Assembly: GCA_027067385.1 (NCBI GenBank)
Contig: JAMOVV010000099.1
Location: 1 to 37,866, forward strand
Length of the DNA: 37,866 bases
Source: Desulfarculaceae bacterium
GTDB lineage: Bacteria; Desulfobacterota; Desulfarculia; Desulfarculales; Desulfarculaceae
Reading direction: 5' to 3'
The notes beneath the pieces are model-generated. The model was not told the origin of the DNA, did not search any database, and saw only the letters and a program-made list of their open reading frames with translations. Below, in pieces: positions 22,434-35,176 of this stretch. How positions within the stretch are numbered: position 1 is the first letter of the stretch; every line of letters starts with the position of its first letter. The position numbers were made by a program, and so were the translations under genes.

Positions 22434-23453
22434 CTAGCCGAATCCCTGGCTCTGGTAGCGCTGGCCGTGCCGGGTGAGGATCATGCCCTCCAGCTCGGGA
22501 CGGGATTTGAGGAAACGAGCCGCCTGGCGCGGTTTCATCACAAAGCAGGCGGTACTCATGGCATCGGCCCACAGGGCCGAGGGCGCGCGCACCGAGGCCG
22601 ACAGGTCGCTGCGCGGCGAGCGGCCGGTGTGCGGGTCCACGATGTGGTGATACAGGCGCTGGCGGTCGAAGAAGACCTGGTAGTTGCCGCTGGTGGCCAG
22701 GGCGCCGCTGCGCAGGCTCAGGGTGTGGCCGGCCCGGGTGGGGTGTTGGGGATCGGCCACGCCGACGCGCCAGGTGCGTCCCGCCCCAGGACGGCCCATC
22801 ACCGCCAGGTCGCCGCCGGCGTTGATCATGGCGTGGCGGGCGCCGGCCCGGCGCACCGCCTCCATGCCCTGGTCCACGATGAACCCCTTGGCCACCCCGT
22901 CGAGGGTGATGGCCGCGCCCTGGCCCACCAGGCGCACCCGGCCCTGGGAGAGGTTCACCCGTCCCAGGCGGCGCAAGGCGTTTTGCAGCTGGGCGCGGGC
23001 CGGCGGCCGGCCACTGGCGGCAAAGCTCTGGCGGGTGAGGTCGATGAGCGGGGCCACGCCAATGTCAAAGGCGCCGCCGGTGATCTCGCCGGCCCGTTGG
23101 CACAGGGCCAGCAGCCGGCTGAGCAGCGGCGGGGCGTCGGCCAGGCGGCCTTCCCGGTTGAGTAGGTACACCGCGCCGGAGCTGCTGTGGCGGTCAAAGA
23201 GCGGGGTGAGCGAGGCCATGCGCGCAAAGGCGTCGGCCAGGGCCTGCTGGGCGCGGGTCGGCGAGGGGTCCAGCACGGTCACCGACACCAGGGTGCCCAT
23301 GAGCATACGGGTTTCCTGCGCCGCCACCAGGCGCTTGTCCAGGCGGGCCAGGCCGATGGCCGGCGACACCAGGGGCAGGGCCGCTCCGGCCGTGGCTACT
23401 CCGGCCAGCTTGAGAAAGGCGCGACGATCCACGGTTTTACGATAAGGGCTCAT
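22434..23453 (-). CDS. apbE: FAD:protein FMN transferase (ApbE)
   Basis: ApbE moves FMN from FAD to a threonine of target proteins. This 339-residue copy has a Tat-like leader (RRAFLKLAG at about 10-18), the flavin-binding region TLDGVAKGFIVDQ, and NAGGDLAVMG, with GNYQVFF and HHIVDPHTG later; all are normal family features. Its Mg and FAD residues appear intact. As the last gene of the rnf operon, overlapping rnfB by 4 bp, it must flavinylate RnfG (SGAT threonine) and probably RnfD. It acts outside the membrane, where these sites lie. Confidence 0.95.
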   Translation of the reverse strand: MSPYRKTVDRRAFLKLAGVATAGAALPLVSPAIGLARLDKRLVAAQETRMLMGTLVSVTVLDPSPTRAQQALADAFARMASLTPLFDRHSSSGAVYLLNREGRLADAPPLLSRLLALCQRAGEITGGAFDIGVAPLIDLTRQSFAASGRPPARAQLQNALRRLGRVNLSQGRVRLVGQGAAITLDGVAKGFIVDQGMEAVRRAGARHAMINAGGDLAVMGRPGAGRTWRVGVADPQHPTRAGHTLSLRSGALATSGNYQVFFDRQRLYHHIVDPHTGRSPRSDLSASVRAPSALWADAMSTACFVMKPRQAARFLKSRPELEGMILTRHGQRYQSQGFG

Positions 23454-25555
23454 GAGCGACCCCCTTGCTGCGCGGCCGCGGCCGGCTGTGATGCTTGAGT
23501 TTCACGACGATAACAGTACAGGCCGCATTGCAGGCAGCGTTGGGCCTCGGCCAGGGCCTGTTCCTCCTTGAGTCCCAGCTCCACCTCCACGAAGCTGCCG
23601 GCCCGCCGGGGTACTTCCAGCTCGGGCATCCGGGCCCGCGGCCCGGCCGGGGCGGCGTCCGGGGTGTCGCCGAGCATGGGCAGGGCCAGGCGGTCGTTCA
23701 CCCAGTTGTCGGGCGGCTCGGGGTCTTCCTGGTTCAGGAAGAGGTGGATGCCGCGGGCGGCCTTGCGGCCGGCCCCGATGGCCTGGACCACGGTGGCCGC
23801 CCCGCTCACCACGTCGCCGCCGGAGAAGACGCCCATGACGCTGGTCTGCATGGAGCCGGTCTTGGCATCGATGGTGTTCCAGCGGGTGAGCTCGATGCGC
23901 TTGCCCTCCTCGTCGGTCTTGAGGAAGTCCAGCTCGGGGAACTGGCCGATGGCCGCGATGACGTTGTCCACCGGCAGTATCTCCTCGGAGCCCTCCACCG
24001 GCACCGGCCGGCGGCGGCCCGAGGCGTCGGGTTCGCCCAGCTCCATGCGGATGAACTCGATGCCGGTGAGCTTGCCGTTTTCGCCGATGAGCCGGGTGGG
24101 CGCGGCCAGGAAGTGGAACTTGATGCCCTCGTGCTCGGCCTCCTCCACCTCGATGTCGTTGGCCGGCATCTCGGCCCGGGAGCGGCGGTAGAGCACCGTC
24201 ACCTCGGCGGCGCCGAGCCGCCAACTGGTGCGAGCGCAGTCGATGGCCGTGTTGCCGCCACCGATAACCACTACCTTGTCGCCCACCGGGGTGTCCTTGA
24301 GCAGTCCCCGGTCGATGAGCATGGTGGTGCCGGGCAGGGTGCCTTGCAGGTCCTCGCCGTCCACCCCCAGGCGGCGGCTGCCCCAGGCCCCCACCCCCAG
24401 GAAGACCGCTTCAAAGCCCTCCTGGCGCAGGTGCTCCAGGGTGAAGTCTTTGCCCATCTCCCGGTTGAGACGCACCTCCACCCCCAGGTCCAGGATGCCC
24501 TGAATCTCCCAGTCCAGAATCTTCTTGGGCAGGCGGTATTCCGGGATGCCGAAACGCAGCATGCCACCGAGGTAGGGCTGGGCTTCGAAGATGGTGGGGG
24601 CGTATCCCAGCCGGGCCAGGTAATAGGCCGCGGTGAGACCGGCCGGCCCGCCGCCCACGATGGCCACCTTGCGGTCGTTCTTGGGCAGGCAGAAAGGCTC
24701 GATGCGCTTGCCCGAGTTCATCTCGTAGTCCGCGACAAAACGTTTGAGGTGGTTGATGTTCACCGGGTCGCCGGTGTGGCGGCGGCGACAGGTGTCCTCG
24801 CAGGGATGGGGACAAACCCGGCCGCAGACCAGGGGCAGCGGGTTGTGCTCCTTGATGATGGTGAGCGCGTCCTCGTAGCGCCTTTCCCCGATAGCCTTGA
24901 TGTAGGCCGGGATGTCGATCTGGGCCGGGCAGGTGGCCTGGCAGGGGGCCAGGCAGTCGCCCAGGGTGTTGAAGCTCAGGATGCGCCGGGTCACCGAGGT
25001 GAGCTTGATGATGTGCTTGGGGCAGACCCGCTCGCAGGTGCCGCAACCGGTGCACAGGGTGGGATCGACCTTGGGCAGCTTGTCCTCGCCCATGGTGATG
25101 GCATCAAAGGGACAGGCCGCTGCGCAGGTGCCCAGACCCAGGCAGCCCACGTCGCAGTACTTGGCGCCGCCCGATAGCAGCACCGCCGCCCGGCAGTCCT
25201 GCACGCCGTCATAGATGAAGCGCAGGTCGGCCTGGTCGGTGCCGTAGGTGCAGTCGGGCTGGGCGACCTCGGGCTCGCGGTACTCCACGGCCACCCCGAG
25301 TACTTCGGCGATGGCCTCGGCGACCTCCGGGCCGCCGCCTACACAGATGTTGGCCGCCGCCCGGCCGGAAGCGATGGCCACCGCCGCCGAGGAGCAGCCG
25401 GCAAAACCGCAACCGCCGCAGTTGGCCCCGGGCAGGGCCTCTTCCACCGCTTCCACCACCGGGTCCACCTCGATGGCGAAGATGCGGGCGGCCACGCCAA
25501 GACCCACCGCGCATACCAAGCCCAAGCCACCGATGGCCAGAGTTGCCATTAGCAT
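23450..25555 (-). CDS. rnfB: RnfB fused to GltD/NfnB-type oxidoreductase
   Basis: The protein has 701 residues, against about 190-330 for ordinary RnfB. Residues 1-25 are the membrane anchor. The RnfB cluster (C46, C49, C54, C71 in NCGGCGFAGC and NIC) and two ferredoxin clusters (C134-C148 and C168-C178) follow. Then comes the extra module: a GltD-type Fe-S region (CLAPCQATCP at 201-210, VCGRVCPHPCEDTC at 243-256), an FAD Rossmann fold (AIVGGGPAG, 298-306) and a second Rossmann fold (VVIGGGNTAIDCAR, 429-442) with RRSRAEMPA after it. The closing FSGGD motif and a last Cys cluster CLQCGLYC follow. The RR pair suggests NADPH, by analogy. The anchor, GGAGG before the ATG and continuous frame make a real fusion likely. 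It would let RnfB exchange electrons between ferredoxin clusters and NAD(P)H. Confidence 0.93.
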   Translation of the reverse strand: MLMATLAIGGLGLVCAVGLGVAARIFAIEVDPVVEAVEEALPGANCGGCGFAGCSSAAVAIASGRAAANICVGGGPEVAEAIAEVLGVAVEYREPEVAQPDCTYGTDQADLRFIYDGVQDCRAAVLLSGGAKYCDVGCLGLGTCAAACPFDAITMGEDKLPKVDPTLCTGCGTCERVCPKHIIKLTSVTRRILSFNTLGDCLAPCQATCPAQIDIPAYIKAIGERRYEDALTIIKEHNPLPLVCGRVCPHPCEDTCRRRHTGDPVNINHLKRFVADYEMNSGKRIEPFCLPKNDRKVAIVGGGPAGLTAAYYLARLGYAPTIFEAQPYLGGMLRFGIPEYRLPKKILDWEIQGILDLGVEVRLNREMGKDFTLEHLRQEGFEAVFLGVGAWGSRRLGVDGEDLQGTLPGTTMLIDRGLLKDTPVGDKVVVIGGGNTAIDCARTSWRLGAAEVTVLYRRSRAEMPANDIEVEEAEHEGIKFHFLAAPTRLIGENGKLTGIEFIRMELGEPDASGRRRPVPVEGSEEILPVDNVIAAIGQFPELDFLKTDEEGKRIELTRWNTIDAKTGSMQTSVMGVFSGGDVVSGAATVVQAIGAGRKAARGIHLFLNQEDPEPPDNWVNDRLALPMLGDTPDAAPAGPRARMPELEVPRRAGSFVEVELGLKEEQALAEAQRCLQCGLYCYRRETQASQPAAAAQQGGRS

Positions 25556-25628: not shown

Positions 25629-26225
25629 CTACCCGGCCAGGCCGGCGAAGCCCCTAAAGGCCAGGGCCAAGAACCCGGCGGTCACCAGGCCGATGGCCGT
25701 GCCTTCAAACACCTTGGGCATGCGGGCCAGCGCAAAGCGTTCCCGGATGCCGGCGAAGAGCACCAGGGCCAGACCGTAGCCCGCCGCCGAGGCAAAGGAG
25801 AACACCAGCGCGTCAAAGAAGTACAGGTCCTTCTTTATGTTGATCAAGGCCACGCCCAACACGGCGCAGTTGGTGGTGATCAGGGGCAGGAAGATGCCCA
25901 GGGCCCGGTACAGGGCCGGCAGGGACTTCTGCATGACGATCTCCACCAATTGCACCAAGGCCGCGATGACCAGGATGAAGGCGATGGTTTGCAGGTACTC
26001 CAGGTTCAGGGGCACCAGCAGGTAGTACTGCACCACGTAGGTGATCATGCCGGCCATGGTGATGACGAAGATGACCGCCATGGCCATGCCGGTGGCGGTG
26101 TCCATGCGCCGGCTGACGCCCAGGAAGGGGCAGTTGCCCAAGAACTGGGCCAGCAGGATGTTGTTGACCAGTACCGCGCCTACGATGAACAGCAGGTAGG
26201 CGCCAAAGCTTTCGGGTCCGCCCAT
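25629..26225 (-). CDS. rnfA: Rnf complex membrane subunit RnfA
   Basis: RnfA and RnfE form the inverted pair of six-helix membrane subunits that hold a [2Fe-2S] cluster mid-membrane and take part in ion pumping. This 198-residue copy shows the conserved NNILLAQFLGNCPFLGVS and LPLITTNCAVLG, including both cysteine positions. Six hydrophobic segments are present and the length is standard. It overlaps rnfE by 1 bp and precedes rnfB by 73 bp. Confidence 0.97.
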   Translation of the reverse strand: MGGPESFGAYLLFIVGAVLVNNILLAQFLGNCPFLGVSRRMDTATGMAMAVIFVITMAGMITYVVQYYLLVPLNLEYLQTIAFILVIAALVQLVEIVMQKSLPALYRALGIFLPLITTNCAVLGVALINIKKDLYFFDALVFSFASAAGYGLALVLFAGIRERFALARMPKVFEGTAIGLVTAGFLALAFRGFAGLAG

Positions 26226-26860
26226 TACTGCGCCCTCCTCTTCTTCCGGTCGAGCCTGATGCCGATCAGGGTGATGATGGCCAGCATGACTCCCAGGCCC
26301 ACGAAGGCGCCCGGCGCGGCCACCATGAATTTGAACGGCTGGTAGGCGTCACCCATTACGTTGATGCTCAGCAGCCCCTTGTAGAGGGTCCAGGTGCCCG
26401 AGCCCAGAATCTCCCGTATGGTGCCCAGGACAAAGAGGCTGATGGTGAAGCCTAGCCCGATGCCCAGGCCGTCGGCAAAGCTGGCCACCGGGCCCCGTTT
26501 GCCGGCAAAGGCCTCGGCGCGGCCCAGGATGATACAGTTGACCACGATGAGCTGGATGAAGATGCCCAGCATTTTATGCAGGTCCGGCACAAAGGCCTTG
26601 AGCATCATGTCCACGATGGTGACAAAGGTGGCGATGATGACGATGTAGGCCGCGATGCGGACCTTGGCCGGGATCACCTTGCGTAGAAGCGAGACCAGCA
26701 CGTTGGAGCAGACCAGCACAAAGGTGGTGGCCAGCCCCATGCCCCAGCCGCCAAAGGCGGTGGCGGTCACGGCCAGCACTGGGCACAGCCCCAGCACCAG
26801 CCGGAAGGGGGGCAGTACGTCCCAGAACCCCTTGGTAAACTCTTTTGCTAAAGAAGACAT
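26225..26860 (-). CDS. rnfE: Rnf complex membrane subunit RnfE
   Basis: RnfE is the partner of RnfA. The 211-residue sequence begins with a cytoplasmic helix (SLAKEFTKGFWDVLPPF). It has six membrane segments with GLCPVLAVTATAFGG and VVNCIILGRAEAFA, the two conserved cysteine motifs. The Lys/Arg-rich C-terminus (DRKKRR) follows the last helix. It lies 13 bp after rnfG and overlaps rnfA. Nothing is missing. Confidence 0.97.
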   Translation of the reverse strand: MSSLAKEFTKGFWDVLPPFRLVLGLCPVLAVTATAFGGWGMGLATTFVLVCSNVLVSLLRKVIPAKVRIAAYIVIIATFVTIVDMMLKAFVPDLHKMLGIFIQLIVVNCIILGRAEAFAGKRGPVASFADGLGIGLGFTISLFVLGTIREILGSGTWTLYKGLLSINVMGDAYQPFKFMVAAPGAFVGLGVMLAIITLIGIRLDRKKRRAQ

Positions 26861-26873
26861 GGGTGCTCCTTGC

Positions 26874-27464
26874 CTACTTGACTATTTGGTCGCGGTACTT
26901 CACGAAAAGAGACCGGGCCTTGTTGATGGCCGCCAAGACGCCCCGGGTGGAGTAGGTGGCTCCACTGATGGCGTTGATGTCGGACTTGGCCAGGGCCTTT
27001 TTAAGCGACTTGCCGGCGAACTGGGACACGAAGGCCTTGCCCTCCTTGGTGGCCGGGTTCAGGGCCTGCTGGGCCGCCGCGATGGTTTCCTGCTGCTCGG
27101 CGATGAAAATACCGGTGAGCTTCTGGTCGGCCAGGTTTATGCCCACCAACACGTTGATGGGCCCGGCGTAGCCGGCCGCGGAGGCCTGCAGGGCCACGGC
27201 CACTATCTTGCCGTCCTTCTTGGCGGGAAACACCGTGAGGGACTGGGGCCGCCCCCGGTGATCCGGGGCCACCGGTACGTTGATGCGGTCGGCGATGGGG
27301 TCGTTGTCCTTGTTGGGCAGCACCGTGTCGATGGCGCCGGCCACTTTTTGCAGGGCGGCGGTCTCGATGGGGCCGCGGGTGATGGAGTCGACCCAGGCCA
27401 CGCCGAAACCGGCCAGGGCGCACAGGACGGTCAACACCACTGTCATATTGATAATGTCACGCAC
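26874..27464 (-). CDS. rnfG: Rnf complex subunit RnfG, FMN-binding
   Basis: RnfG is anchored by one N-terminal helix (about 5-25) and exposes a flavin domain outside the membrane. The FMN-attachment motif NAISGATYST places the flavin on T170. The usual ETPGLG-type motif seen upstream of it in most RnfG/NqrC proteins is absent; the corresponding part reads EQQETIAAAQQALNP. Length (196) is normal. It overlaps rnfD by 8 bp. The change may alter flavin environment or partner contacts. Confidence 0.95.
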   Translation of the reverse strand: MRDIINMTVVLTVLCALAGFGVAWVDSITRGPIETAALQKVAGAIDTVLPNKDNDPIADRINVPVAPDHRGRPQSLTVFPAKKDGKIVAVALQASAAGYAGPINVLVGINLADQKLTGIFIAEQQETIAAAQQALNPATKEGKAFVSQFAGKSLKKALAKSDINAISGATYSTRGVLAAINKARSLFVKYRDQIVK

Positions 27465-28461
27465 TGCTCATCACCTTTCCCAGCACGCGCGGCCGGATGC
27501 GGTCCAACAGGGGTGTGACCGCGTTCATCAGTAGTACGCCGTAGAAGACGCCGTCGACCATGGTGCCCCAGAAGCGCACGATCACGGCCATCAGGCCGAT
27601 GCCCAGGCCGTAGATGATCATGCCCCAGGGGGTGACCGGCGAAGACACCGGCTCCGGGGCCAGGAAAAAGGCGGCGATCATCAGCCCCCCGGTACCCAGA
27701 TGCAGCCAGACCACGTCCAGGTGGGCCGCAAAGCCCTCCAGCTCCACCTCTATTACGCCGGGGTCGATGTAGGAGGCCAACAGGGCCATGGCCGCCGCGC
27801 CCAGCAGGGTGCCCAGGGGAATCTGCCAGGGCACGATGCCGCGGATCACCAGGTACAGGCCGCCCACGATGAGGGCCCAGGCCCCGGTGGCCCCGATGGC
27901 CCCGGGGGTGTTGCCCCACCACAGGGGCCCCAGCTCGGGATCCATCACCAGGCCGACGTCGTCTTTCAAGTCCATCAAGAAAGTAGTGGCCGTCTCCCAC
28001 TCGCCGCCGGAGCCGATGGGCACCGGGGCCAGGAAGGCGTTCATCTGCTCGGGCCAGCTTATCGACAGCGCGGCCCAGGCGATGATCACCGGGTTCATGG
28101 GATAGGCCCCCAGGCCGCCGAAGATCATCTTGCCCAGCACCACGGCCAGCACCGACCCGATCAGGGGCAGCCACCAGGGCGCGCCGGGAGGCAGCACCAG
28201 GCCCATCATCAGGCCCATGGTGAGCGAGTGCAGGTCGTCGATCCGGTTGGGCAGCTTGGCGATCTTGCAGGCGGCCCACTCGGCGGCCACCGCCGCCACC
28301 ACCGCGATGGCCACGGTGATCGCCGCCGGCAGGCCGAAGAAGTACACGCCGGTGAGCAGGGCGGGCAAGAGGGCCACCATCAGCTCCAGGTGCATGGAAC
28401 GCACGGTCATGGAGCCCAGGATGTGCGGCGATGACGATACGGTCAGAAGGTTGTGGTTCAT
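27457..28461 (-). CDS. rnfD: Rnf complex membrane subunit RnfD
   Basis: RnfD is a polytopic membrane subunit carrying a second covalent FMN. The 334-residue chain has about nine to ten hydrophobic segments, and HSLTMGLMMGLVLPPGAPWW and GGLGAYPMNPVIIAWA match the family. By position against E. coli RsxD (MATPLD), the flavin threonine is probably T159 in WETATTFLMD. GAIGATGAWALIVGGLYL is the conserved later helix. Its ATG overlaps the rnfC stop (ATGA). Confidence 0.95.
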   Translation of the reverse strand: MNHNLLTVSSSPHILGSMTVRSMHLELMVALLPALLTGVYFFGLPAAITVAIAVVAAVAAEWAACKIAKLPNRIDDLHSLTMGLMMGLVLPPGAPWWLPLIGSVLAVVLGKMIFGGLGAYPMNPVIIAWAALSISWPEQMNAFLAPVPIGSGGEWETATTFLMDLKDDVGLVMDPELGPLWWGNTPGAIGATGAWALIVGGLYLVIRGIVPWQIPLGTLLGAAAMALLASYIDPGVIEVELEGFAAHLDVVWLHLGTGGLMIAAFFLAPEPVSSPVTPWGMIIYGLGIGLMAVIVRFWGTMVDGVFYGVLLMNAVTPLLDRIRPRVLGKVMSSA

Positions 28462-29816
28462 TCTTCCATCCTCCCGGCCAAGAGCTCGGTTTTACCGTGG
28501 CGCAACAGGTGCACCATGGGGCGCCGGGCCGGACAGACATAAGCGCAGACCCCGCACTCAATGCAATGGAACAAGTCCATTTCCATGGCCTTGTCGAAAT
28601 GCTTGAACTCGCAGAGCTTGCCCAACTCCGAGGGAATCAGGTTCACCGGGCAGGCCCGTACGCAGCGCCCGCAGTGGATGCAGGGATGATCCTCGTAATG
28701 GACCAGGTTGCTGTCGCACTGGATGAACAGGCCCTCGGTCTCCTTGGTCACCGGGGTGTCCAGGTCGTAGTGGGCGTAGCCCATCATGGGGCCGCCCAGC
28801 ACCGCCTTGGCCACCCCGGCGGTGGGACCGCCGGCGGCGGCCAGCACCTGGCTCACCGGGGTGCCCAGGCGCACCCGGAAGGTCTGGGGGTTGGCCACGT
28901 CGCCGGCCACACTGAAGACGCGCTCCAGGCTGGGCCGGCCGCCCAGCAGCAGGGTCCCCACTTCCAGGGCGGTCTGCAAGGGCTCGATGACCACGCCCAC
29001 GTCGCGGGGTTCACCGTAAGGGGTGGGGACCTCGCGGCCGGTGAGGTGGTGGATAAGGAGATTGTCGGTGGTGAAGGGATACTTGGTGGGGGAAACCGCC
29101 GACAGGTTCCAGAGATGGTTCTTGGCCATCTCGGCCATCTCGCCCAGCTCGGCGCCGGCCGGGTGGACCACGATCACCTCCGTGGCGCCGGCGATGCGGG
29201 CCAGGGCCAAGATGCCGATCTCCAGCTCGGGACCGCCCAGCTTGAGGCAGGCGTGGTTGGGGCAAATCGGCGGGTCAGGGTCCACTGCCTTGACCACCAG
29301 GGTGTCCACCTGCCGGGTGACCGGCATGCCGGTCATGAACAGGTAGGAACGCGGGGCCATGGGCGGCGACAGGTCCACGTGCAGGGGCAGGCCCTGGATG
29401 GCCGCCCGCACCAGCCCGGCCTGGCGGATGGGTTTGAGCAGGCGGGTGGGACGCTTGGCGGTCACCTCCTCGGCGCTGGTCACCACCGCCTGGGGCGGGT
29501 CTTGCCAGGTGTCCTGGCCGTCGTTGGCGATGATCAAGGTGGGGATGAGCTGGCCCGAAGGGTCGGGCATCTCCACCAGGCCTTCCACCCGTCCGCTAAC
29601 CGAGGCCAACACCGCGGCGGATTCAAACTCGTCGGAGGAGCCGACCACTTGCCCCATGGCCACGTCCTGGCCTACCTCGACCACCGGCTCGCAGGTTTGG
29701 CCTCGGTGTTGGCGCAGGGGCAGGAAAACCTTCTCCGGCGGTTTCAGGACAACCGGCCCTGTCGGCTCCGGCGGGCGGGCGCGTTTGATGCCCTTAAAGC
29801 AACTCGTGAAACTCAT
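28458..29816 (-). CDS. rnfC: RnfC with degenerate NADH/FMN site
   Basis: RnfC is the peripheral cytoplasmic subunit that in canonical Rnf binds FMN and NADH and two [4Fe-4S] clusters. This 452-residue copy keeps both clusters (CIHCGRCVRACP near 379-390, CIECGVCAYVCP near 418-429) and the barrel-sandwich N-terminus. The family's glycine-rich GLGGAxFPTHVK segment is replaced by AGLVRAAIQGLPLHVDL (133-149). The ECEP-containing stretch is replaced by VKAVDPDPPICPNHACL, and YPQG by YPFTTDN. So NADH/FMN binding there is doubtful; the altered region looks somewhat NqrA-like (YLFMTGMPV). First gene of the rnf block, with AAAGG before the ATG, 182 bp after the kinase gene. Confidence 0.93.
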   Translation of the reverse strand: MSFTSCFKGIKRARPPEPTGPVVLKPPEKVFLPLRQHRGQTCEPVVEVGQDVAMGQVVGSSDEFESAAVLASVSGRVEGLVEMPDPSGQLIPTLIIANDGQDTWQDPPQAVVTSAEEVTAKRPTRLLKPIRQAGLVRAAIQGLPLHVDLSPPMAPRSYLFMTGMPVTRQVDTLVVKAVDPDPPICPNHACLKLGGPELEIGILALARIAGATEVIVVHPAGAELGEMAEMAKNHLWNLSAVSPTKYPFTTDNLLIHHLTGREVPTPYGEPRDVGVVIEPLQTALEVGTLLLGGRPSLERVFSVAGDVANPQTFRVRLGTPVSQVLAAAGGPTAGVAKAVLGGPMMGYAHYDLDTPVTKETEGLFIQCDSNLVHYEDHPCIHCGRCVRACPVNLIPSELGKLCEFKHFDKAMEMDLFHCIECGVCAYVCPARRPMVHLLRHGKTELLAGRMEE

Positions 29817-29998: not shown

Positions 29999-31099
29999 TC
30001 AGCTTGTGGGAATCGATATCACAAAAGTAGTCCCCTCCGCCGGCTGGGATTTAACCTGTATCTCGCCGCCGTGGGCGCGCACCACGCGCCGGGCGATGGA
30101 CAGCCCCAGGCCGGTGCCGGGCTTCTTTTTAAGCTCCGGGCTCTTGGACCGGAAAAAGTCGTCAAAAATATAATCCTGCTCCGCCTCGGGTATGCCGGGA
30201 CCCTGGTCGCTGATGGCCAGGTCCAGCCAGCCCGGGCTGGTGCGGCAGGTTATGCGTACCTCGCCGCCGGGGCGGTTGTACTTAACCGCGTTGCTGGTGA
30301 TGTTGTAGAGCGCCTCCAAAAGGCTTTCGGAGTCTACCTTGACCAGTTGGTCGCGGTCGAAGTCTTCCACCACCAGGCTCTGGCCGGCGGTGTCGGTGTC
30401 GAGCTTGGTGCGCTGGGCCAGGGTGTCGATGATCGAGGCCAGGGTGACCGGCTCCCTGCGCTCGGCCACGCCGCTCTCGGCGATGCGGCTCATGGCCAAC
30501 CAGGCGTTGATAGTGCCCAACAGATCGTCGAGCCGCACCACCGCTCGTTCGATTATCTCGCGGTAGGCCTCTTCCATGGGACCCAGGCTCTGGTTGATCA
30601 CCACCTCCATCAACTGGCGCACCGCCGAGAGCGGCGAGCGCATCTGGTGGGTGACCATGGTGACGAAGTTGGCCTCCATGCGGGCCTTTTCCTCGCGCAG
30701 CTCCTTGGTCTCCAGCTCCAGGAAACGGTGCTCAAAGCCGCGCACCACCGCCCGCCGCAGCTCGTCGGGCGAAAAGGGCTTGGGCAGGAAATCGTAGGCC
30801 CCGTTTTTCATGGCGTCGATGGCCGCCTGCAGGGTGGCGTGGCCGGTGACCATGATGCAGATGATGGCCGGGTCGTATTCCTGCACCGCGGCCAGCACCT
30901 CCTGGCCGCTGATGCCGGGCATGGCCAAATCCACCAGTACCAAGTCCGGCGGGTCGGCCTTGATGGATTCCAGCCCCTGCTCGCCGCTGACGGCGAGGGT
31001 CACCTCGTAGCCCCAGCGGGTCAGCAGAACTTCCGCCGACTCGCGGGCCACTTCGTCATCGTCGATGACCAGCACTCGAGGCTTTGTGCGCAGCACCAT
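29999..31099 (-). CDS. Receiver-histidine kinase hybrid, soluble
   Basis: The 366-residue protein has an N-terminal receiver domain (D14/D15 acidic pair, phosphoacceptor D57 in LVLVDLAMPG, K107). After a short coiled linker come a HisKA dimerisation helix with H151 in VTHQMRSPLSAV and a HATPase domain with N-box NITSNAVKY, G1 DQGPGIP and G2 GTGLGLS. It has no membrane segment or PAS/HAMP domain, so it receives its signal from another protein by phosphotransfer, or from cytoplasmic partners. It lies between a lone receiver gene and rnfC on the same strand, which suggests control of, or sensing by, the Rnf system. No DNA-binding output domain is present in either gene. Confidence 0.92.
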   Translation of the reverse strand: MVLRTKPRVLVIDDDEVARESAEVLLTRWGYEVTLAVSGEQGLESIKADPPDLVLVDLAMPGISGQEVLAAVQEYDPAIICIMVTGHATLQAAIDAMKNGAYDFLPKPFSPDELRRAVVRGFEHRFLELETKELREEKARMEANFVTMVTHQMRSPLSAVRQLMEVVINQSLGPMEEAYREIIERAVVRLDDLLGTINAWLAMSRIAESGVAERREPVTLASIIDTLAQRTKLDTDTAGQSLVVEDFDRDQLVKVDSESLLEALYNITSNAVKYNRPGGEVRITCRTSPGWLDLAISDQGPGIPEAEQDYIFDDFFRSKSPELKKKPGTGLGLSIARRVVRAHGGEIQVKSQPAEGTTFVISIPTS

Positions 31100-31112
31100 G
31101 GCCGCTCTTCTC

Positions 31113-31505
31113 TCAGGACGCCAGGAGTTGGTTCACCTTGGAATTCAACTCTTCGGCGGAGAAGGGCTTATCCAAGAAGGCGTCGCTGGCCGCGATCTGG
31201 GCCTGCTCGGGGATATCAAAACGCTCGCCGGTGATCTTCTTCACCGCCGAGACCATCAGCACCGGGATGTCACGGTAGTCCATGTATTCCGGCGTGCCAC
31301 GCAGGGTGGTGGTTACCGAAAACCCCTCGTAAATCGAGTCCATCATGATGTCTAAAATAATGAGGTCGGGGTCTTCGGATTTTACCTTTTCCAGGCCTTC
31401 TTTACTGTCGTTGGCCGAGGCCACGGAATGGCCGGCGGCCTTTAAGATCGCTTCGGTGGCCAGGATAAAATCCTCGTCGTCGTCAATGATCAAAATGTGC
31501 GCCAT
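31113..31505 (-). CDS. Stand-alone response-regulator receiver protein
   Basis: The 130-residue CheY-like single domain has D8-D10, phosphoacceptor D52 in LIILDIMMD, the Ser/Thr position in MVSAV and conserved K (DKPF). It has an insertion around residues 58-78 (IYEGFSVTTTLRGTPEYMD) common in some deltaproteobacterial receivers. It starts the kinase-rnf transcript, with only 13 bp to the kinase gene, and is presumably phosphorylated by, or passes phosphate to, that kinase. Output is by protein contact since no effector domain is attached. Confidence 0.92.
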   Translation of the reverse strand: MAHILIIDDDEDFILATEAILKAAGHSVASANDSKEGLEKVKSEDPDLIILDIMMDSIYEGFSVTTTLRGTPEYMDYRDIPVLMVSAVKKITGERFDIPEQAQIAASDAFLDKPFSAEELNSKVNQLLAS

Positions 31506-31543
31506 GGCTCCACCTTGAGACGGAGTAGATTAATGGGTCGGTC

Positions 31544-31560
31544 AAAGTGCGCCGCACTTT
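31544..31560. promoter_or_regulatory. 17-bp perfect palindrome (operator candidate)
   Basis: AAAGTGCG-C-CGCACTTT is a perfect 8-bp inverted repeat around one base, 39 bp before the receiver gene start. It overlaps the -10 box and start point of the candidate promoter, the position of a repressor site. Confidence 0.65.
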
Positions 31561-31584
31561 AACGCGATATGTCCCCCAAGTCAA
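31556..31584 (-). promoter_or_regulatory. Promoter of the receiver-kinase-rnf operon
   Basis: On the minus strand TTGACT (31584-31579) and TAAAGT (31561-31556) are 17 bp apart. The -10 overlaps the palindrome at 31544-31560. No other good promoter was seen between here and rnfC, so this may drive the whole block. Confidence 0.6.
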
Positions 31585-31599
31585 CCAAACTCGGCAAAT

Positions 31600-31786
31600 A
31601 GCCTTTATTATTTTTTAATATCAACGCGTTACGCGTTGTGCAATTTTTCATAAAGGCCCTGACCGCACACCCGGGGACCGTGGGGCCCCTGGCTTGGGCC
31701 GCCTGGCGGCGCCCTGGCCGCACCGCGGCCGGTGGCCGCGGCGGCGGGATTGGCAGGGGATGATGCCTGGCCGGTTTGCCGGCGGG
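31600..31786. other. Intergenic region with two inverted repeats
   Basis: An AT-rich patch contains CAACGCG-TTA-CGCGTTG (31622-31638), followed by ATTTTT on the + strand. A GC-rich stretch contains CCGCGGCC-GGT-GGCCGCGG (31723-31741). The second lies downstream of the GNAT gene without a U-run. No open reading frame is supported. Confidence 0.5.
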
Positions 31787-32365
31787 TCAGTAACGGTACA
31801 GAAACTCCTTTTCGCCTTGCCGCTTGAGCCGTTTGAGCAGGATAATGACATCATAGGGGTTGCCGTCGAGGTCCACCCGGAAGTCCTCCAGGATGGCCTT
31901 GAGTTCAAAGCCCAGGCGCTTGCAGGCGGTGATGAGCTCCTGCTGGTCCATGCGTATTTCAACCTGGAGCAGCATGAGCTGCATTTCATCGGCGGTCTGG
32001 CTCAAGAAGCGCATCAGGGCAGATCCCATACCCAGGTCGCGGTAGTGGGGGTGGACGATGGTTTGCACCTTGGCCCGGTGGGCGCTGGAGTAGGCGCCGC
32101 GGCGGAAGAAGGCATAGGCGCTGAGCACGTGGTCGGAGTCCAGGTCAAAGGCCCCCAGCATCTTGGGGTTGGCCCCGCCCAGTTGGGCCATGGCCGCCCG
32201 CACCGCCTTGGGGTCCACCAGGTCGTGGGATACATTGGCGTGCTGCTCGCGGTCCAGGCTGTCGATGAATTGCAACACCAGTTCCAAGTCGTCGGGTTGC
32301 AGCCACTTGAGGCCCACGTCCCGGCCGTCGTTGAGGATTACGGTGGTGAAATATTGGCCGCTCAT
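31787..32365 (-). CDS. GNAT-family N-acetyltransferase
   Basis: The 192-residue protein has the acetyl-CoA-binding motif HYRDLGMGSAL (R/Q-x-x-G-x-G/A) near 107-117, preceded by the beta-strand AKVQTIV. LVQF-type strands and KRLGFELKAIL near the C-terminus are typical of the family. It begins with ATG at 32365 with GGGGAGG upstream. Substrate unknown: it could be a small molecule, an amine or a protein. Single gene; the C-terminal Lys/Arg run (LKRLKRQGEKEF) is unusual but not informative. Confidence 0.88.
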   Translation of the reverse strand: MSGQYFTTVILNDGRDVGLKWLQPDDLELVLQFIDSLDREQHANVSHDLVDPKAVRAAMAQLGGANPKMLGAFDLDSDHVLSAYAFFRRGAYSSAHRAKVQTIVHPHYRDLGMGSALMRFLSQTADEMQLMLLQVEIRMDQQELITACKRLGFELKAILEDFRVDLDGNPYDVIILLKRLKRQGEKEFLYRY

Positions 32366-32381
32366 GGCTACCTCCCCGCGT

Positions 32382-32413
32382 TGACCGGCCTGGTGGTCAT
32401 TTGGTGACCGGCC
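32382..32413. repeat. Direct repeat TGACCGGCC
   Basis: Two identical 9-bp copies (32382-32390 and 32405-32413) begin 23 bp apart, just upstream of the GNAT gene. Spacing near two helical turns would fit a dimeric regulator, but the evidence is thin. Confidence 0.4.
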
Positions 32414-32507
32414 CTGCTGTTTGGTAGCATTTGTGGCCGTTAAAAGTCAATTGTCGCCGGGTGATTGAAAAATCCACCCCCAGCGGCGGCGTCCGGTTGA
32501 TTTATCC

Positions 32508-32537
32508 TTGACACCCGCCGGGGGATATGTCTAAGTC
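32508..32537 (+). promoter_or_regulatory. Candidate promoter of iorAB
   Basis: TTGACA (32508-32513) is followed after 18 bp by TAAGTC (32532-32537), the same pair and spacing as before the beta-barrel gene. The -10 is poor by the E. coli standard. The start codon is 125 bp downstream. Confidence 0.45.
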
Positions 32538-32539
32538 AC

Positions 32540-32560
32540 TTTGTAGCTAATTTGTAACTA
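32540..32560. repeat. Tandem TTTGTARCTA sites before iorA
   Basis: TTTGTAGCTA (32540-32549) and TTTGTAACTA (32551-32560) are repeated with an 11-bp period, one turn of the helix, immediately downstream of the candidate -10 box. This arrangement suits a transcription-factor binding site. Confidence 0.45.
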
Positions 32561-32662
32561 CGGGCCCCGGAGGTTGGCCGCCCGCAACGGGCAGCCGTGT
32601 AGGCGGGAGGCTGCTGCTTTTCCACCGTAGGGGACCGCTAACCATTGGGTGGAGATCAAAAT

Positions 32663-34570
32663 ATGGACAAGCTCTTGACCACCTCGGGAGGCAGGCAGCA
32701 GTTGCTGCTGGGCAACGAGGCCATAGTACGGGGCGCCTTGGAGGCGGGGGTGGCGTTCGTCACCTGTTACCCCGGTACCCCCTCGTCGGAAGTCCCCGAT
32801 ACTTTTTACCGCCTGCGCAAACAGAACCCCGGCGCCACCAGGTATTATTTCGAGTATTCGACCAACGAGAAGGTCGCCCTGGAGTGCGCCGCCGGGGCCG
32901 CGGTCGCCGGGCTGCGCACCATGTGCACCATGAAGCACGTGGGGGTCAACGTGGCCGCCGACCCGCTGATGACCCTGGCCTACGTGGGGGTCAACGCCGG
33001 CATGGTGATCCTCACCGCCGACGACCCCTCGCTCTTTTCCAGCCAGAACGAGCAGGACAACCGCTACTACGCGCGCCTGTCAGGCCTGCCCCTGCTGGAG
33101 CCGGTGGGGCCGGCCGAGCTCAAAGAGGTCACCAAGTACGCCTTCTCCCTCAGCGAGGAGCTGGGCCTGCCGGTGCTGATGCGCACCACCACCCGGGTCA
33201 ACCACGCCCGTGAGCCGGTGCCCTTCCAGCGCCTGCCCAAGACCAAGACCCAGGGCAAGTTTGAAAAGGCTCCCTTCCAGTACGTCACCGTGCCGGCGGT
33301 GAGCCGCAACCTGCACCTCAAGCTGTTGGCGGCCCAGAAGCAGGCCCTGGCCATCAGCGAGAAATCCGATCTCAACAAGATCTTCGGCAGCGGCAAGCTC
33401 GGGGTGATCACCAGCGGCGTGAGCGTCAACTACGTGCTCGACGCGGTGGATGACCTGGGGGCCAAGAAGAAGATCAAGGTGCTGAAGCTGGGCTTCTCCT
33501 GGCCGCTGCCCGAAAAGAAGATCGCCCGCTTCCTAAAGAGCGTGGACAAGGTCCTGGTGGTGGAAGAGGGCGAGCCCATCGTGGAAGAGGCGGTCAACGC
33601 CATCGCCAACCGCTGCGGCGCCAAGTGCGACATCGGCGGCAAGCAGATGTGGAAATTCCCCCCGGTGTCGGTGGACGTGGAGCGTCCCAAGTTCCTGAGC
33701 CGGGCCTTTGAATACAACCCCCGCATGGTGCGCGAGGTCATGGCCAAGTACTTCGGCCTCAAGCAGCAGGCGCCCAGGCCGGTGAGCCTCAAGGGCATAC
33801 CCGATCTGCCGGGGCGTCCGCCCAACCTCTGCGCCGGCTGCCCCCACCGGGCCACCTTCTACGCGGTGAAAGAGGTGGTGGGTCCCGATGCCATCCATCC
33901 CACTGACATCGGCTGCTACACCCTGGGGCTGCTGCCGCCGATCTCCATGGCCGACTTCCTCATCTGCATGGGATCGTCGGTCTCCAGCTCCGGCGGCCTG
34001 TCCTTTGCCACCGGCAAAAAGACGGTGAGCTTCATCGGCGACTCGACCTTCTTCCACTCCGGCCTCACCGGCCTGGTCAACGCGGTGCACAACAACCACG
34101 ACTTCACCCTGGTCATCCTGGACAACGGCACCACGGCCATGACCGGCCACCAGCCCAACCCCGGGGTGGATACCGAGGCCCTGGGCGATCCCACCACCCA
34201 CATCGATATCGAGCAGGTGGTGCGCGGCCTGGGGGTGCAGCACGTCACCACCATCAAGCCGTTCAAGGTCCGCTCGGCCATGGCCGCCATCCAAAAGGCG
34301 GTGGACTTCAAGGGCGTGAGCGTGATCATCAGCCAGGAGCTGTGTCCCCTCTACGCCCGCCGGGTGGCGCCCAAGACCAAGCGCCCCTTTGCGGTTAACC
34401 CCAACAAGTGCAAGGGCCACCTGGACTGCATCCAGAAAGTAGCCTGCCCGGCCATGTTCCTGGATGACCAGGGCAAGGCCCAGATCAACCCGTTGCAATG
34501 TATCGGCTGCGCTCTCTGCGCCCAGATTTGTCCGGAGAACGCTATTCTACCCGTCAAGGCCAAGGCTTAA
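32663..34570 (+). CDS. iorA: Indolepyruvate ferredoxin oxidoreductase, alpha
   Basis: IorA is the catalytic subunit that converts arylpyruvates, CoA and oxidised ferredoxin to aryl-acetyl-CoA, CO2 and reduced ferredoxin. The 635-residue sequence has the pyrimidine-binding domain (TCYPGTPSSEVPDTFYRL), CPHRATFYAV and the thiamine-diphosphate motif GDSTFFHSG near 458-466 with LDNGTTAMTGHQPNPG. A C-terminal two-cluster ferredoxin domain (CKGHLDCIQKVACP, CIGCALCAQICP) follows. ATG 32663 is chosen over an upstream TTG because GGAG lies eight bases before it. Its partner iorB follows 12 bp later. An obvious supplier of reduced ferredoxin to Rnf. Confidence 0.96.
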   Translation: MDKLLTTSGGRQQLLLGNEAIVRGALEAGVAFVTCYPGTPSSEVPDTFYRLRKQNPGATRYYFEYSTNEKVALECAAGAAVAGLRTMCTMKHVGVNVAADPLMTLAYVGVNAGMVILTADDPSLFSSQNEQDNRYYARLSGLPLLEPVGPAELKEVTKYAFSLSEELGLPVLMRTTTRVNHAREPVPFQRLPKTKTQGKFEKAPFQYVTVPAVSRNLHLKLLAAQKQALAISEKSDLNKIFGSGKLGVITSGVSVNYVLDAVDDLGAKKKIKVLKLGFSWPLPEKKIARFLKSVDKVLVVEEGEPIVEEAVNAIANRCGAKCDIGGKQMWKFPPVSVDVERPKFLSRAFEYNPRMVREVMAKYFGLKQQAPRPVSLKGIPDLPGRPPNLCAGCPHRATFYAVKEVVGPDAIHPTDIGCYTLGLLPPISMADFLICMGSSVSSSGGLSFATGKKTVSFIGDSTFFHSGLTGLVNAVHNNHDFTLVILDNGTTAMTGHQPNPGVDTEALGDPTTHIDIEQVVRGLGVQHVTTIKPFKVRSAMAAIQKAVDFKGVSVIISQELCPLYARRVAPKTKRPFAVNPNKCKGHLDCIQKVACPAMFLDDQGKAQINPLQCIGCALCAQICPENAILPVKAKA

Positions 34571-34582
34571 GGAGGTGGCACC

Positions 34583-35176
34583 ATGAAGACCATGCGTATC
34601 GTAAATGTGGCGGTGGGCGGTCAGGGCAACCTCTTGGCCAGCAACCTGTTGGGCCAGGCGGCCCTGGACTCCGGCGTACCGGTGGTGGTGAGCGAGATTC
34701 ACGGCATGGCCCAGCGCGGCGGCGTGGTGGAGAGCGCCATCATCCTCGGCGGCGCCCGCAGCCCGGTGGTGGCCGACGGCGAGGCCGACATCATCGTCAG
34801 CTTCGAGCCGGTGGAGACCATGCGTATCTTAAACAAGGCCAACCGGGACACCCTGGTGTTGACCAACACCCGTCCCTTGCCGCCCTTCACCGTGGCCATC
34901 GGGGCGGCCCCGTACCCCGACACCACCGAGGCCCTGAAAGTGGTAGGCCGCAAGGTGGGTAAGCTCATCGCCTTTGACGGCCAGGATCTGGCCGAGCAGG
35001 CCGAAAACCCCCTGAGCCTCAACATGGTGATGCTGGGAGCCCTGTTCGCCACCGGCGAGCTGGCGGTGCCGGTGAAGTCCATCAAGAAAATGATTCGCCA
35101 AAACACCAAGAAGCGGTTCGTGCCCTCGAATATCAAGGCCTTTGACCTGGGATACAAGGCCGCTTTGGCTGCTTAA
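34583..35176 (+). CDS. iorB: Indolepyruvate ferredoxin oxidoreductase, beta
   Basis: The 197-residue gamma/beta-type subunit of 2-oxoacid:ferredoxin oxidoreductases has the nucleotide-like fold motif VAVGGQGNLLASNLLGQAA. EIHGMAQRGGVVESAI, typical of IorB, follows. The start has GGAGG upstream. Together with IorA it makes an alpha2beta2 enzyme in the cytoplasm. It ends 24 bp before a strong terminator, so the operon is just iorAB. Confidence 0.95.
   Translation: MKTMRIVNVAVGGQGNLLASNLLGQAALDSGVPVVVSEIHGMAQRGGVVESAIILGGARSPVVADGEADIIVSFEPVETMRILNKANRDTLVLTNTRPLPPFTVAIGAAPYPDTTEALKVVGRKVGKLIAFDGQDLAEQAENPLSLNMVMLGALFATGELAVPVKSIKKMIRQNTKKRFVPSNIKAFDLGYKAALAA

Follow-up and report, generated by a model that had tools for sequence, protein, structure and literature searches.

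A probable Rnf2-type complex in a Desulfarculaceae bacterium, with an RnfC lacking the FMN/NADH motifs and an RnfB fused to an NfnB/GltD-like domain

The canonical Rnf complex (Rnf1) of A. woodii, C. tetanomorphum and A. vinelandii is a ferredoxin:NAD+ oxidoreductase. The path established from solved structures leads through RnfB, RnfA/E, RnfG, RnfD and RnfC, and in those of A. woodii the clusters of RnfB and RnfC are too distant for direct transfer (PMC11889175). In C. tetanomorphum, residues 215-268 of RnfB make up FdIII, and the presumed docking site of ferredoxin lies close to the outermost cluster, as seen from the membrane, of the FdII+III domain (PMC9588780). A variant known as Rnf2, or the Tol2-type, has been recorded in Desulfobacula toluolica, Desulfococcus multivorans, Desulfobacterium autotrophicum and the Desulfobacteraceae generally (PMC5109826; PMC11887813). 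The 2016 paper cites the D. toluolica Tol2 genome paper for an RnfB of about 700 amino acids with NAD sites and an RnfC without NADH domains, a combination described as "necessitating" another redox partner; five Rnf2 subunits were detected by proteomics in all of the conditions tested (PMC5109826). Rnf2 was subsequently placed in the core genome of the Desulfobacteraceae and reported to be abundant and constitutively made (2025 study, PMC11887813), and it coexists with the canonical Rnf1 in several genomes. No measurement of its electron donor or acceptor was found in the literature, and the available part of a 2025 review of Rnf and NQR makes no mention of the variant (PMC12174285).

The window analysed here, the whole 37,866-nucleotide stretch of contig JAMOVV010000099.1 from a Desulfarculaceae bacterium, carries all six Rnf subunits (A, B, C, D, E and G) within one operon on the reverse strand, in the order rnfC-D-G-E-A-B-apbE. 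The leading gene, rnfC (28458-29816, 452 amino acids), has an ATG start and overlaps rnfD by 4 bp; the order CDGEAB is that of A. woodii. The RnfD protein (27457-28461, 334 amino acids) matches NQR2_RnfD_RnfE over residues 7-328 and lacks an NqrB-like N-terminal extension, while RnfG (26874-27464) has an FMN_bind domain with the flavinylation motif SGATYS. By reading, the membrane [2Fe-2S] site has its two cysteines in RnfE (26225-26860; GLCPVLA and VNCIILG) and in RnfA (25629-26225; GNCPFLG and TNCAVLG). The fused rnfB (23450-25555) is followed by apbE (22434-23453), encoding a flavin transferase that by analogy would serve RnfD and RnfG. The locus thus shares with canonical Rnf1 the RnfA/D/E/G core, the transmembrane helix, FdI and FdII of RnfB, the two clusters of RnfC and ApbE. 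With Rnf2, as described in PMC5109826, it shares the six-subunit core, an RnfB of about 700 amino acids with a pyridine-nucleotide domain, and an RnfC without the NADH-site features. Unlike the rnf2 operon of D. multivorans, which includes a cytochrome gene (not a stated defining feature of Rnf2), the rnf operons of the window and of its family have none; operon cytochromes do occur in other members of the Rnf2 clade. The variant is thus already published, and the window extends it to the window's family. Next to the operon, at 29999-35176, lie genes for a response regulator and a sensor kinase together with iorAB, for indolepyruvate ferredoxin oxidoreductase; this neighborhood is kept in several family members.

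The product of 28458-29816 was identified as RnfC by NCBIfam TIGR01945 (285.7 bits against a cut-off of 245.95), its best solved relatives being the RnfCs of C. tetanomorphum, A. woodii and A. vinelandii. Alignment to these proteins bore out the claim of an earlier note on this DNA that RnfC had lost GLGGAxFPTHVK, ECEP and YPQG while keeping its clusters. Unlike in canonical Rnf1, GxGGAxFP, ECEP and YPQG are all absent: GLGGATFPTHVKL of the solved proteins reads LVRAAIQGLPLHVDLSPPMAPRSYLFMTGMPV in the window, so that the FMN loop GLGGATFPTHVK is replaced, NGAECEP has become KAVDPDPP, and YPQGAE has become YPFTTD at residues 246-251 approximately. The remodeled loop and the ECEP-equivalent segment together span residues of about 133-190 (29247-29420, reverse strand). 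Both [4Fe-4S] motifs are intact, the first (CIHCGRCVRACP) from residue 379 and the second (CIECGVCAYVCP) from residue 418. The FMN/NADH domain is altered, yet the domain itself is not gone: Pfam Complex1_51K is detected barely over its threshold (32.1 against 31.2 bits) and SLBB at 45.3 bits, whereas the RnfC of Tol2 was reported to lack the NADH-dehydrogenase and SLBB domains and is hence the more diverged. No NuoF match was obtained with the window RnfC, compared to 58 bits for a canonical RnfC control. An AlphaFold2 model built from 14 sequences (pLDDT 77, pTM 0.79; confidence low across the Fe-S domain, residues 375-452) retrieved A. woodii RnfC first with Foldseek (TM 0.75 to 9eri_C), and hence the predicted fold is still that of RnfC. 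Bound FMN, judged from the motifs, would be absent. A second RnfC_N match in the same genome (C184) was found to be PduS-like with canonical FMN motifs, and not a second RnfC; it lies near a contig end and is followed by an open reading frame that, by reading, would encode a shell protein of a bacterial microcompartment.

The other cytoplasmic end is altered as well. Residues 1-191 of the 701-amino acid RnfB are RnfB proper, with the transmembrane helix, FdI and FdII, and residues of about 200-610 form an intact domain for FAD and NAD(P)H that comes with Fer4_20 clusters; a CxxCG motif lies at the C-terminus. The earlier note had pointed to an RnfB fusion in this operon. The GltD-like part is closest to NfnA of NfnABC, StnA of StnABC and NfnB (E-values of 1e-99 to 1e-130), and the GGGNTAID and YRRS motifs are intact in RnfBs of the window type. 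StnABC and NfnABC (8oh5, 9bov, 9n5u), bifurcating transhydrogenases in which a GltD-like FAD/NAD(P)H domain is likewise fused to Fe-S domains, are the closest solved relatives of this part but, unlike the window protein, are not joined to an ion pump. Given that the match to the RnfBs of A. woodii and C. tetanomorphum ends at their residue 195 or thereabouts, with FdIII of the latter beginning beyond it, the fused FAD/NAD(P)H domain appears from the alignments to occupy the place of the distal ferredoxin domain FdIII, unlike in canonical Rnf1; this placement is new here. The window RnfB does not end in the canonical FdII+FdIII domains that dock ferredoxin, by itself a weak feature, as the length of RnfB varies among organisms.

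The same replacement of RnfC motifs was found in 13 relatives, most of them from the window's family and including a single-contig genome of 3,655,731 bp. In a comparison of 10 family members, the most conserved part of RnfC is the replaced loop (residues 133-166), with a mean pairwise identity of 82%, when RnfC as a whole reaches 66% and its Fe-S domain 75%; identity above that of the whole protein suggests a constrained role of its own. Judged by this conservation, the motif loss is a conserved trait and not decay. Its form varies: G001 has 12 residues of the FMN loop deleted outright, several relatives retain (D/E)P remnants at the ECEP position, and three clade members retain YPxG by a pattern test, their other RnfC motifs being gone.

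To place these features, a survey took in 60 relatives together with 395 genomes from the phylum, and about 110 regions were examined. A motif-less RnfC with both cluster motifs was encoded in every rnf operon that had a fused RnfB and a visible rnfC (one operon, L080, was left out of the RnfC counts for want of a called RnfC ORF, its scan match being 35%), and operons of the Rnf2 type without rnfB also had a motif-less RnfC. About 50 motif-less operons were seen in the sampled Desulfobacterota, every RnfC of the window's lineage among them, and the cluster ligands of RnfC were kept in every clade member seen. With about 100 operons encoding a canonical RnfC, from the phylum and a GTDB-wide scan, no fused RnfB was found among the matches listed; no operon combining the fusion with a canonical RnfC, let alone many genomes with both, occurred among those surveyed. 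L126 was counted as canonical, having small substitutions only (GMGGVAYP, ESEP). Proteins of 530-595 amino acids called RnfC in L205 and L208 were set aside, as they carry the NuoF motif GRGGxGFP, that of L208 being NuoF-like by Pfam.

In a tree of RnfA+E+D, all of the motif-less operons fell on one side of a branch with an SH-aLRT of 100, and they likewise formed one clade (SH-aLRT 100) in a tree of RnfA+E with ten more rows, both being quick searches without bootstrap. The window operon groups on its membrane subunits with other Rnf2 operons, which were assigned by architecture and not through the named Tol2 or D. multivorans sequences. This single clade indicates that the co-occurrence of motif-less RnfC and fused RnfB largely reflects shared ancestry, that is, one or very few events, and it consequently speaks less strongly for functional coupling than the counts alone would imply. 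The expectation that the two features always occur together held in one direction: a fused RnfB implied a motif-less RnfC, but in G096, G075 and G414 (97-99% complete) a motif-less RnfC was accompanied, genome-wide, by unfused RnfB only. On the RnfA+E+D tree, an unfused group (G075, G096, G131, G163) is sister to the fused group, with a support of 91 on the fused side, and on the RnfA+E tree an operon with an unfused RnfB and a decahaem cytochrome before rnfC (L251), an arrangement known from Desulfovibrio (PMC4841214), lies inside the fused group. These exceptions indicate that loss of the RnfC site marks the whole clade and that fusion is unnecessary for it; these trees do not show with confidence which of the two came first. 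Adjoining some motif-less rnfC operons with an unfused RnfB are genes read as a Tmc/DsrMK-like complex with a tetrahaem cytochrome (L220:1646-4153, with like genes in L222 and L225), and three Rnf2 operons without rnfB (L266, L267 and L273, of G432, G094 and G324) have a separate GltD/NfnB-like gene of 467 amino acids 3' of rnfA.

Two kinds of fused RnfB were distinguished. The NAD(P) motifs are present in 29 of 55 and absent in 26, and the two sets form separate tree groups (support 93) with the exception of one row, L069. Formate dehydrogenase or NuoF-like genes, recognized by motif and with example identities by Pfam, lie near 12 of the 26 NAD(P)-lost proteins and none of the 29 intact ones (Fisher 2e-5, uncorrected for relatedness). 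Exactly one Rnf2-type RnfA, defined by 54-85% identity to that of the window (other matches having 50% or less), was found in 40 of 42 genomes searched and none in the other two. Two fused RnfBs occur in 19 genomes; in all 19, one is NAD(P)-intact and the other NAD(P)-lost, and each of these genomes has a single Rnf2-type RnfA and no second Rnf2 core. The RnfB borne by the operon may be of either kind, and some Rnf2 operons have no rnfB. Only the intact kind is present in the complete genome G003 and was found in that of the window, an 86% complete draft. It is conceivable, though somewhat short of an even chance, that one Rnf2 core is served by two interchangeable RnfBs, type I with the NAD(P)H site intact and type II having lost it. 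Exchange of RnfB might then let the pump use either NAD(P)H or a different donor, such as a formate dehydrogenase module, with RnfC as the common Fe-S outlet for both types; operons without rnfB would depend on unlinked RnfBs. Stand-alone RnfB-GltD genes off the rnf operon were recorded at L063, L065, L067, L069, L071, L072, L075, L179-L183, L187, L189, L191, L192, L198, L209, L210, L212-L216 and L218; those of the NAD(P)-lost kind are often near molybdopterin formate dehydrogenase or NuoF-like genes, and one in G002 is near a gene for formate--tetrahydrofolate ligase.

A further observation concerns RnfBs encoded beside canonical-type rnf genes, where flanks are visible. An in-frame TGA occupies exactly the codon of the first cysteine in the [4Fe-4S] motif of FdI (AQUGGCGFAGC) in L265:3229-4260 (forward strand), and likewise in L263, L264, L238 and L258 (the five genomes being G341, G322, G282, G394 and G412); the relative L255 has TGC at this position. 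These are candidate selenocysteine RnfBs. A hairpin is possible just 3' of the TGA in several loci, for which no Rfam match was found.

Taken together, the window complex is probably an Rnf2 with an intact membrane core and both cytoplasmic ends re-tooled. At the input end, electrons would most likely pass from NAD(P)H to FAD and the [4Fe-4S] clusters and on to FdII and FdI of RnfB; the middle of the path, from the [2Fe-2S] cluster of RnfA/E to the FMN of RnfG, the FMN of RnfD and riboflavin, would be unchanged; and at the output end RnfC would act as a two-cluster relay, exchanging single electrons with a partner protein that probably docks at the remodeled, strongly conserved loop. If the sign of coupling is kept, such that electron flow from RnfB to RnfC drives ion export, entry of NAD(P)H at RnfB requires either a more positive partner at RnfC or a donor from which the gradient drives electrons uphill to NAD(P)+. 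Rnf2 would thus either pump Na+ or H+ upon oxidation of NAD(P)H or spend the ion gradient in reducing NAD(P)+. Ferredoxin is an unlikely partner of RnfC in either case, as the usual coupling sign demands one more positive than NAD(P)H. The earlier proposal that the pyridine-nucleotide site moved from RnfC to RnfB is partly supported: it agrees with the consistent pairing of fused RnfB with motif-less RnfC and with the absence of the fusion beside canonical RnfCs, but a strict relocation is not supported, given the common inheritance of the two features, the unfused exceptions and the loss of the NAD(P)-Rossmann motif in about half of the fused RnfBs. Moreover, with ferredoxin still entering at RnfB, plain relocation would be expected to short-circuit the pump; the mechanism calls for another redox partner at RnfC, as was stated for the same combination in 2016 (PMC5109826). 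An analogy is provided by Na+-NQR, proposed to have originated from Rnf through such steps (PMC4014512), in that its input subunit is where pyridine nucleotide comes in and its RnfC equivalent, NqrA, has lost the FMN/NAD site. Unlike Na+-NQR, the input module of the window is NfnB/GltD-like and not an FNR-like [2Fe-2S] NqrF, its RnfC keeps both Fe-S motifs whereas NqrA has no clusters, and its RnfD lacks the NqrB-type extension, which makes a quinone outlet like that of NQR (site described in PMC12174285) unlikely.

Several observations count against this reading of Rnf2. With half of the fused RnfBs lacking the NAD(P) motif and some members lacking a fused RnfB, entry of NAD(P)H does not hold for the clade throughout; FdII of the fused RnfB might still accept electrons from ferredoxin; and motif loss in a protein of intact predicted fold, with Complex1_51K detected and some (D/E)P remnants in relatives, is no proof of an FMN-free RnfC. 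It is unlikely, but the best placed of the alternatives, that the RnfC branch is a relic and that RnfG passes the electrons on to a c-type cytochrome at the periplasmic side, a route put forward for Methanosarcina acetivorans. By published description, that Rnf does not use NAD(P), its RnfC keeps the two cluster motifs, and its outlet is cytochrome c and methanophenazine; unlike in the window, no RnfB fusion has been described. Several related operons, including motif-less ones with an unfused RnfB, indeed begin with a gene for a cytochrome of 4-10 haems, one of which matched class III cytochrome c, but the operons of the window and its family have no such gene, and the RnfC cluster ligands, retained in every clade member seen, would be needless in a relic. 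Slightly less probable still is an RnfC in which other residues still hold FMN and NAD(H), in an ordinary ferredoxin:NAD+ pump whose RnfB merely bears an extra transhydrogenase-like domain. The retained fold, the marginal Complex1_51K score and the (D/E)P remnants are what such a pocket might leave, but the joint loss of three separate motif regions in most of the about 50 operons, the twelve-residue deletion in G001, the lack of a NuoF match and the replacement of FdIII argue against it. That the gene is merely a degenerate copy arising from decay, mis-assembly or chance, for which the draft state of the genome might speak, deserves almost no credence, frameshift and contamination likewise being ruled out by conservation and synteny, given the shared replacement in 13 relatives and a 3.66 Mb single contig, the motif loss across the phylum and the identity of the loop.

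The preferred reading, a re-tooled Rnf2, concerns a main ion pump of marine sulfate reducers, which has no assigned reaction in the literature found, and it presents a living parallel to the proposed route from Rnf to Na+-NQR. The fusion lies at the site where ferredoxin would dock. The existence of two kinds of RnfB suggests that the inputs of the pump may be exchangeable.
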